Origin: Epinephelus fuscoguttatus
Taxonomy: Eukaryota > Chordata > Actinopteri > Perciformes > Serranidae
Direction of reading: 5' to 3'
Assembly (NCBI RefSeq): GCF_011397635.1
Contig: NC_064758.1
Span: 22,404,513-22,468,512 of the forward strand
DNA: 64,000 nucleotides
Shown: positions 4,192 to 7,100 of the stretch, piece by piece
Layout of the letters: each line of letters begins with the position of its first letter
How positions within the stretch are numbered: the first letter of the stretch is position 1
The notes under the pieces: generated by a model
Seen by the model: the letters and a program-made list of their open reading frames with translations, nothing else
The model's database searches: none
Told to the model about the DNA's origin: nothing
Made by a program: the position numbers and the translations under genes

Positions 4192-7100
4192 CTAGAGGGT
4201 GAGCCAGGGGTGACGCAAGCACTCCGCGGCTGTGGCTCTCTTCTCCGGGATCAGCTCCAGCATGGGAAGCAGGAAGTCAGTAAAGCACTCGGCTTCTTCA
4301 CGGGGCCACTCGTACTTGTCAATCAGCACCTCCAGCAGGCCCCACGGCTTCAGCTTGGTGATGTGTTTCAAATCCCCTGCAGACGGACAGACAGCGCAGC
4401 ATCAGAGAGCAGTGCAGGAACATACCACAGTTCCCCACATGTAAATTTACCATGAGCTAGTTTAGTCTGTGAAAACATATTCAAATATCTAGATATAACA
4501 TACATTAAATATTTGAGTTTATTAACTGTTTTCCAGGACAGGCATTTCTTTTAAACAGTAATATCTAATGACGGGAATGTTTTAACAATTAAAGTTCAGG
4601 TAAAAAAACATTTTAAAAACTTTACACAACAGATGTGTGAAAATATAAGTAGCTCTAAGCAATGATCTTAACGACAGGCAGAAAGCCGTCTCTCATCTTG
4701 ACACTGATGTGTCTTTGTTTTACCTTTCTTGGTGAAAAAATCCTTGGAATATTTGCCGCTCATAATGAGTTTGCGTGGGACACTCCCCAGCAGCTCAATG
4801 ATCAGCGCTATATGGTCTACACGGCAGCCGATTTCCAAGAGGAGAGGGACAAGACAGACAAGACAGACAACACATTCGTCAGACAGTGTCCCAGTCACAG
4901 GCCCACTCTGGGTGTGTGGGTGGAGGGCTGAGGAAGGACAGGCTGACAGCACACATACATATACGGGCCAGATTGTTGCAGAGGCTTGGGTGCGCAGACC
5001 TACAGTTAGAAATCACGTCATCAAACCTAGCCACCAGACATTACAAGTGCTCTAAGGTTCTTAAACTGTTTCCAGCTCCGCTCTAGCTACAACTAGGAGG
5101 GAATAATACTCTTTCTCACCCTAATCAGCCTTTAACTGATAAGCCTTTCCTTCAGTCTCAAAGCAAACACCTTCACTTACTCATACTAAGTTGGAAGTGT
5201 TTTTATCATATACACCTGTTAATACCTGCTGAAGCATCATCCTCATTTTAAAGTAGTAACGCAGAGGTCTCGATATTTTTCTCAAACTTCAAACACTTCA
5301 CCATATCAACAAATAACGTAAGACATCAGCAGTGTTGGGGTCCTTACTCAAAGAATATATTACACATCACTCCTTACTTTTTTAAAAAGTAATGCATTAT
5401 TTTACTCTTTTTTACTCCCTGAAAGAAGTAATTTATTTCACTTCTTGTTACATTAATTTTGCAATACTCCGCAACACTGCCTGAAATGTACTGTCATGTT
5501 ATCACCAATTTAATCTATAGTATTGAACCTTACATGTGCCCGCATATCAGCACAAATCCCCATCTTGCCTTAAAATAAAAGTACATCTATAAATTAAATA
5601 CGAGACTAGCCTTCCTGACATCATTAGATATTGATGACAGATTTAAGAGGAGAAAAAAACATCTTTAAATGGCACATAAACTGCATTTAACTGGCCAAAC
5701 AAACTCACTTGAGTCGTTCACTCACCAAACCATGGCTTCTTAGTAGACTAGTGCAGCTTATTTGACATGTTTATCACTAAAGCAGCGGTTATACTCAGTG
5801 AGAGTCTCTTAAATCGTTTCACAGACAACCTGTTCCTCCTTCAGTCAGTAACAGACTGCCAAGGCTAAAGAGGCTCTCCAGAGGCGCACTAGACTATCCG
5901 GCCATTATACAGAAAACTGAAGAACTTACATAACGTAAGTAACAATATAACTGTTTGATTGGTAACTATGATGTGGTTGCTGAATTTAGGAACAGTAGCA
6001 CATTACATTACTGCATTAGACAAATGTAATAAGATCACAGTAAGGAAATCAGTGCACTGATTCATTACAAAGGTTATCTTATTAAGACTCTGTGCCACAG
6101 TGAAGGCAGCAAGGGGTTTCCAGCACAGAGACCAGGATTCAGGTTCAAGCCCCAGAAACAGGCATCTGCCCTACAGAAGTGCTCTTGAACATGTCTGCCA
6201 GCTCCACAGGGGCCATCTGGAGCACAAAGGCTCTCAAACTATTTCAGGCTGGAGATCCCTTATGGATGAGGTGTTATTCCCAGACCCCTTCTTAGTTATC
6301 ACAGTGTTACAAACGCTCATAAAAACTTCTGATGCCATTTTATATTCGGAAACTGATATCATACACACGTCTGTAATTAAAAGAAACACTGCTAGTTAAA
6401 AGCAGTTGACTACCCCATGGAGGAAAAAAGTAATGAGAATTTCCCCTACAGGGATCAATACAGTATTGGCAGCCAAGTCATCTGGCTACAACTAAGAAGG
6501 TAGTGAGTGTACCTCTGCCAGGCAATCTTTGGCACAACTACTGACACTTACATCAATGTCTGATGGCACTGTTCAAAGTAAGATACATTTATTGGGCTGT
6601 ATTCATTATTTTGCCCACTGGCCTGCACACACCAACAACTTTGGTAGAACTGAATGTGCTGACTCTCCCCCTTCACCTCACATCCACCGTTCCCAGAGCG
6701 AGCCACAGACAGAGGGGTGGCGTACCTCTCTTGGTGAAGTATTCCTGTGAGTATTTCCCACTCAGAGCATAGTGACGAGGAATTTTACCGAGCAACTCAA
6801 TCATGAGAGCAAGATGGTCTGGAAATGAGGCACATCCGAGGAGGAGAGACAGAGAGTCAGAGGGTAACAGTTTCGAGGGAGGAGAGGGGATAGGAGAGAG
6901 ATGGCAAACAGTTATGTCGAACAGTTAGGGCTGGGCGATACGGAGAAAATTAAATATCACGATATTTTTGACAAAATAACTCAATGTCATCCATATATTG
7001 CGGTAATATTGTAGGGTTGACTATCATTGTCTTCACAGTTACACAGTGAGATTTATGATAAATAATCACTATTAATGTGGATAAATGGGGTCGTCTCTCA

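Follow-up and report, generated by a model that had tools for sequence, protein, structure and literature searches.

Tandem-duplicated, probably mutually exclusive exons for the docking-groove helix of a fish SRPK1

The SRPK1 gene found in a 64-kb window of Epinephelus fuscoguttatus DNA (the window being the whole stretch analysed, 64,000 nucleotides) carries two neighbouring versions of the exon that encodes helix alpha-G together with the beginning of the MAPK-type insert. Our analysis suggests that these are very probably tandem duplicates used in a mutually exclusive manner, older than the split between the fish and mammalian lineages and regulated at their acceptors. In the mechanism we propose, each mRNA would contain either exon A (6726..6818) or exon B (4724..4816) between two constitutive exons (8987..9056 and 4192..4376), all on the minus strand. 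The outcome would be two full-length forms of the kinase, with differences at 12 of the segment's 32 residues, chiefly in 579-582 (HYAL in A versus KLIM in B) and 588-594. The choice between the exons would be made through regulated use of their acceptors, because both are weak and come with long AG-free, pyrimidine-rich tracts. The switch would tune the geometry of the docking groove, the packing of the insert or allostery, and would not exchange one set of contacts for another. The pair would thus be mostly an ancient switch of a known kind, and not a new one.

A pair of homologous coding exons

The exons of SRPK1 lie in order on the minus strand, from ~13.1 kb to 4.2 kb, and cover the protein from residue 48 to its end (tblastn with a human SRPK1 query). 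In the same search the spacer gave poor matches, and some weak matches fell elsewhere; three of the latter hit the kinase exons at 22.6-27.9 kb. In a comparison with SRPK1 and SRPK2, the constitutive last coding exon proved nearer to SRPK1 (86.7 % against the human protein, versus 70.0 % against human SRPK2; tblastn, the stretch being confirmed by PDB alignments), and L568, which sits at the groove centre where SRPK2 has H, is present in both A and B. Around the gene, the minus strand from ~34.8 to 22.4 kb holds what we take to be p38/MAPK14-like exons, their translations judged by eye, and the plus strand below 660 presumably holds a tetraspan LHFPL-like exon.

Exons A and B are each 93 nt long, preceded by AG and followed by GT; both of their boundaries fall between the first and second bases of a codon (phase 1-1), and they run from the D of a first split codon to the G of a last one. 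They were delimited by tblastn, by frame and by the cassette and divergence analyses given below. Both have the same flanking exons, placed by tblastn and frame: the upstream one (8987..9056) contains the equivalent of D548 and contributes, as a leftover base, the first base of the D564 codon, while the downstream one (4192..4376) runs to the stop codon and contains the equivalents of K602, K604, W606 and K615. The core of A is SRPK2-like and B is SRPK1-like; identity between them amounts to 62 of 93 bases and, in the protein, 20 of 32 residues. Neighbouring, of like length, in the same phase, homologous and in frame, A and B have the attributes of a tandem duplicate. All of the coordinates, lengths, phases, AG/GT sites and the approximate residue identity (about 20 of 32) reported in a preliminary description of this DNA agree with our counts, and its junction coordinates 8987 and 4376 are correct.

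Chance likeness of the two exons is excluded. There are 110 stop-free phase-1 cassettes of the form AG-93-GT in the 64 kb (54 on the plus strand and 56 on the minus), and, apart from A and B themselves, none exceeds 6 matches to either exon over the 32 residues. In tblastn with human SRPK1, the alpha-G segment was matched at the loci of these two exons, with E values of 1.7e-9 and 8e-13, every other match to the segment having an E value of at least 1.3 with either the SRPK1 or the SRPK2 query. The differences between A and B affect codon position 1 in 8, position 2 in 5 and position 3 in 18 of the 32 codons. By the Nei-Gojobori method, pS is 0.714 and pN 0.213, with a dN of 0.25 and a dS of 2.28, a rough figure because synonymous sites are near saturation; dN/dS is ~0.11. 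In neutral simulations of 31 base substitutions, 12 or fewer amino-acid changes arose in only 21 of 20000 runs started from A and 17 of 20000 started from B, and 14 and 11 of 20000, respectively, when an open frame was also required. The near-saturated dS together with a dN of 0.25 therefore indicates that the duplication is old and that both exons have since been evolving as protein-coding DNA. By this evidence the pair is an old coding-exon duplication, each copy under protein constraint for most of its history; the evidence, taken alone, is no proof that both are in use today.

Splice sites and exclusivity

Four splice outcomes can be drawn for the pair and all are in frame: A alone or B alone leads to a complete kinase end, skipping both loses alpha-G, and including both doubles it. 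Frame shift is thus ruled out as a cause of exclusivity, as is steric hindrance, given the 1909 nt between these two 93-nt exons, and U12 incompatibility, given that both have GT-AG sites without a U12 donor motif. In the absence of any barrier of frame, spacing or spliceosome type (U2/U12), exclusivity would have to be regulated. We infer that both exons are used in RNA and placed under such regulators, and mutually exclusive use of A and B is, from the arrangement of the sequence, likely.

Splice sites described earlier as good are so in the case of the donors (7.05 for A and 7.46 for B, in the middle of the range of 14 scored sites that include one doubtful boundary), but not in the case of the acceptors. 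On the weights used here, those of A (1.43) and B (-4.89) have the two lowest values of the 11 SRPK1 acceptors scored, a set without four or more acceptors that lie farther upstream than 11.5 kb; the next lowest is a U12-like acceptor (1.90). Their AG-free zones, 110 nt for A and 87 nt for B, are also the two longest of the 11 (27-78 nt in the remaining ones). The acceptor region of A (6819..6930, minus strand) is pyrimidine-rich and has candidate branch points at CTAAC and CTGAC, ~106 and ~38 nt before the intron end, and that of B (4817..4905, minus strand) has one at CTGAC, ~62 nt before it. Low acceptor scores combined with long AG-free zones are as expected of regulated exons.

Counts of splicing-factor motifs by themselves do not single out A and B. 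The RBFOX motif TGCATG occurs 60 times in the window, where 63 would be expected, so it shows no enrichment, and it is absent within 900 nt of A or B, the nearest copy lying at 7760 on the opposite strand. Before both A and B there is a high density of UCUU-type, PTB-like motifs (8 and 11 matches), but so there is at two constitutive acceptors (19 and 9), and for that reason we dropped their density as an argument for regulation.

Two other features of the SRPK1 introns deserve mention. In the intron that precedes exon A, about 1 kb (6926-7951, minus strand) lies between inverted TAGGGCTGGGC ends, like a small DNA transposon; the end of this element supplies the AG at the upstream edge of the AG-free zone of A and adjoins the CTAAC candidate branch point. 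Farther upstream, the intron at 11472-11936 (minus strand) looks like a minor-spliceosome intron because of its U12-type donor (GTATCCTTT) and branch site CCTTAAC. For lupus neutrophils, human SRPK1 has been tabulated among the U12-intron genes whose splicing is altered (PMC12637451).

A possible contribution of RNA structure was seen in the 3' half of exon A, where positions 6738-6758 are complementary at 18 of 21 positions to an intron stretch at 8517..8537 (minus strand). None of 100 shuffles was as good, and one of 600 in a second run; this was one of six exon-intron pairs tried, and the other five were ordinary. We consider the pairing a weak lead. Exon B, compared with the same upstream intron in 21-nt windows, does not go beyond chance (471 of 600 shuffles as good). 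A repeat search between 4376 and 9000 returned four inverted pairs, two of them touching an exon. The 5' splice site of exon B (4719-4734) has a 16-nt imperfect complement at 8909-8924, in the intron that also holds 8517-8537.

Origin of the pair and rival readings

The affinities claimed for the two exons hold: B agrees with human SRPK1 at 28 of 32 residues, and A is slightly nearer to human SRPK2 (23/32) than to human SRPK1 (21/32). An exon tree including SRPK2, which had been proposed as a check, was built from 32 sites in five sequences with yeast Sky1 as outgroup, and four topologies were compared by AU tests with 5000 and then 20000 replicates. The best of the four places A within the SRPK1 lineage, outside B and human SRPK1. 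The tree with A outside both SRPK1 and SRPK2 is 3.85 log units worse (AU 0.03, SH 0.34), and the one in which A and B are recent sisters loses 9.9 log units (AU 0.025), but is not rejected by the SH (0.12) and KH (0.055) tests. By these results the duplication is probably older than the separation of this lineage from mammals.

One survey reports a cluster of mutually exclusive exons (MXEs) in human SRPK1, assigns it to a mammalian core set and finds it absent in Glires (Hatje et al., 2017; PMC5740500). The clusters of that study were either annotated or predicted by similarity, length and frame, and were then checked with RNA-seq junctions; its main text mentions SRPK once and gives neither the duplicated exon nor the reads. 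There is a strong probability that the human cluster and the A/B pair are the same. Human SRPK1 would therefore probably have kept both exons, and a 'splice-site mutation of D564' cited for the human gene in another paper fits a human exon boundary at this codon too. The view that the pair had no prior description is accordingly weakened. The report by Hatje et al. is the only mention of an SRPK1 MXE cluster in the papers examined, and SRPK is absent from the main texts of three other surveys (PMC9741552 among them). In the fish srpk1 literature examined, the pair was not found; that literature deals with zebrafish srpk1a and srpk1b, inferred to be maternal, with a switch in the dominant copy, with the strong cold induction of srpk1b in larvae, with srpk1a as one of the positively selected genes of loaches, and with zebrafish srpk1 as having a shorter spacer.

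A different origin had been put forward in the preliminary description, in which an ancestral SRPK had both exons before SRPK1 and SRPK2 split and each mammalian paralogue kept one. Exon A does share I576, H579, A581, L582 and R594 with human SRPK2, and a tree with A beside SRPK2, although not the best, is unrejected (AU 0.22 on 32 sites). However, this SRPK2-like core may be merely the ancestral state, whereas L568, T592 and K593 are common to A and SRPK1 and not to SRPK2; placing A in the SRPK1 lineage gains 2.95 log units and saves one parsimony step; and the existence of the human cluster means that SRPK1 probably did not keep just one exon. The proposal is weakly disfavoured by these data, and we consider it unlikely.

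The other two rivals concern present use. Exon A could be a retired or decaying exon, formerly alternative, with B alone in use now, as its low acceptor score (1.43) and the loss of the SRPK1 cluster in some mammals (Glires; PMC5740500) might suggest. Yet its frame is open and both of its splice sites are present, with a donor close to that of B, and it is the acceptor of B that scores below that of A; moreover, the dN/dS of the pair (~0.11) leaves little room for a long relaxation. We find decay of A quite improbable. Even smaller is the chance that A and B are ordinary cassettes, or are both included to give a kinase with a doubled alpha-G segment. Since joint inclusion and joint skipping are in frame, the frame would permit either, and many neighbouring similar exons are not spliced exclusively, as Hatje et al. 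(2017; PMC5740500) warn. Such products, however, would have a core helix of the kinase lobe, the one that bears D564 and E571, either twice or not at all, and the same authors argue that exons ending inside a secondary structure are unlikely to be cassettes. We therefore retain, as the better account, an old pair of mutually exclusive exons in SRPK1.

Possible consequences for the kinase and relation to known systems

SRPK1 phosphorylates SR proteins, and its docking groove has been targeted with inhibitors (PMC11211491). The segment encoded by A or B corresponds to residues 564-595 of human SRPK1. Residues named as essential to the groove are D548, D564, E571 and K615 (PMC11211491 among the sources), and D564, A567 and E571 on alpha-G are described as groove components. 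As had been claimed, the equivalent of Glu571 is kept in both exons, and Asp564 is kept too. A change of the groove contacts by a splice switch, in contrast, is not supported: D564, whose codon is split at the exon start, A567, L568 and E571 are identical in A and B, and L568 is of the SRPK1 type in both. The 12 differences lie at 566, 569, 575, 576, 579-582, 588-590 and 594, with KLIM in B and HYAL in A forming the block 579-582. Position 569 is M in exon A; a molecular dynamics study implies that free SRPK1 has an allosteric group, with I569 as a member, which disappears in a peptide complex.

Because the groove residues are unchanged, the switch would act behind the groove and not on its contacts. 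We infer that it would affect the insert and what supports the groove from behind, and through these perhaps the affinity, the processivity or a surface for partners, while sparing the charged contacts. The places to look for an effect of the choice between A and B are thus 579-582 and 588-594, and not the groove contacts. If two natural versions of the segment with D564 and E571 exist and the mouse lacks the second, single-isoform recombinant assays and mouse models would miss one form of the enzyme.

A broader scenario can be entertained, which we hold as possible and somewhat doubtful. SRPK1, itself a kinase that controls splicing factors, could since before the radiation of bony vertebrates have had a splice switch for the helix framing its substrate groove, with a hybrid isoform that would combine an SRPK1 groove with an SRPK2-like insert. 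This could close a feedback loop in which the state of splicing sets the processivity or the partner choice of the kinase, retained by fishes and by many mammals but lost by Glires. If this is true, the loss would leave mouse models blind to the switch in SRPK1.

The pair can be set against several known systems. The human cluster (PMC5740500) is in the same gene, with its exon unnamed in the main text, and fish are outside that study. The contrast between the SRPK1 and SRPK2 grooves (PMC11211491) involves the very segment encoded by A and B, with D564, L568 and E571; there, L568 of SRPK1 versus H601 of SRPK2 is the key difference and leads to different processivities, whereas A and B both have L568. 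In tandem duplicated exon substitution events of vertebrates (PMC9741552, 2022), a survey whose main text does not name SRPK, homologous in-frame exons are swapped, as would be the case for A and B. Finally, exons 4a and 4b of OGDH (PMC7969005) are separated by a short intron, unlike the 1909 nt between A and B, but their exclusivity is enforced by distant branch points, and A and B likewise have long AG-free zones and distant candidate branch points.
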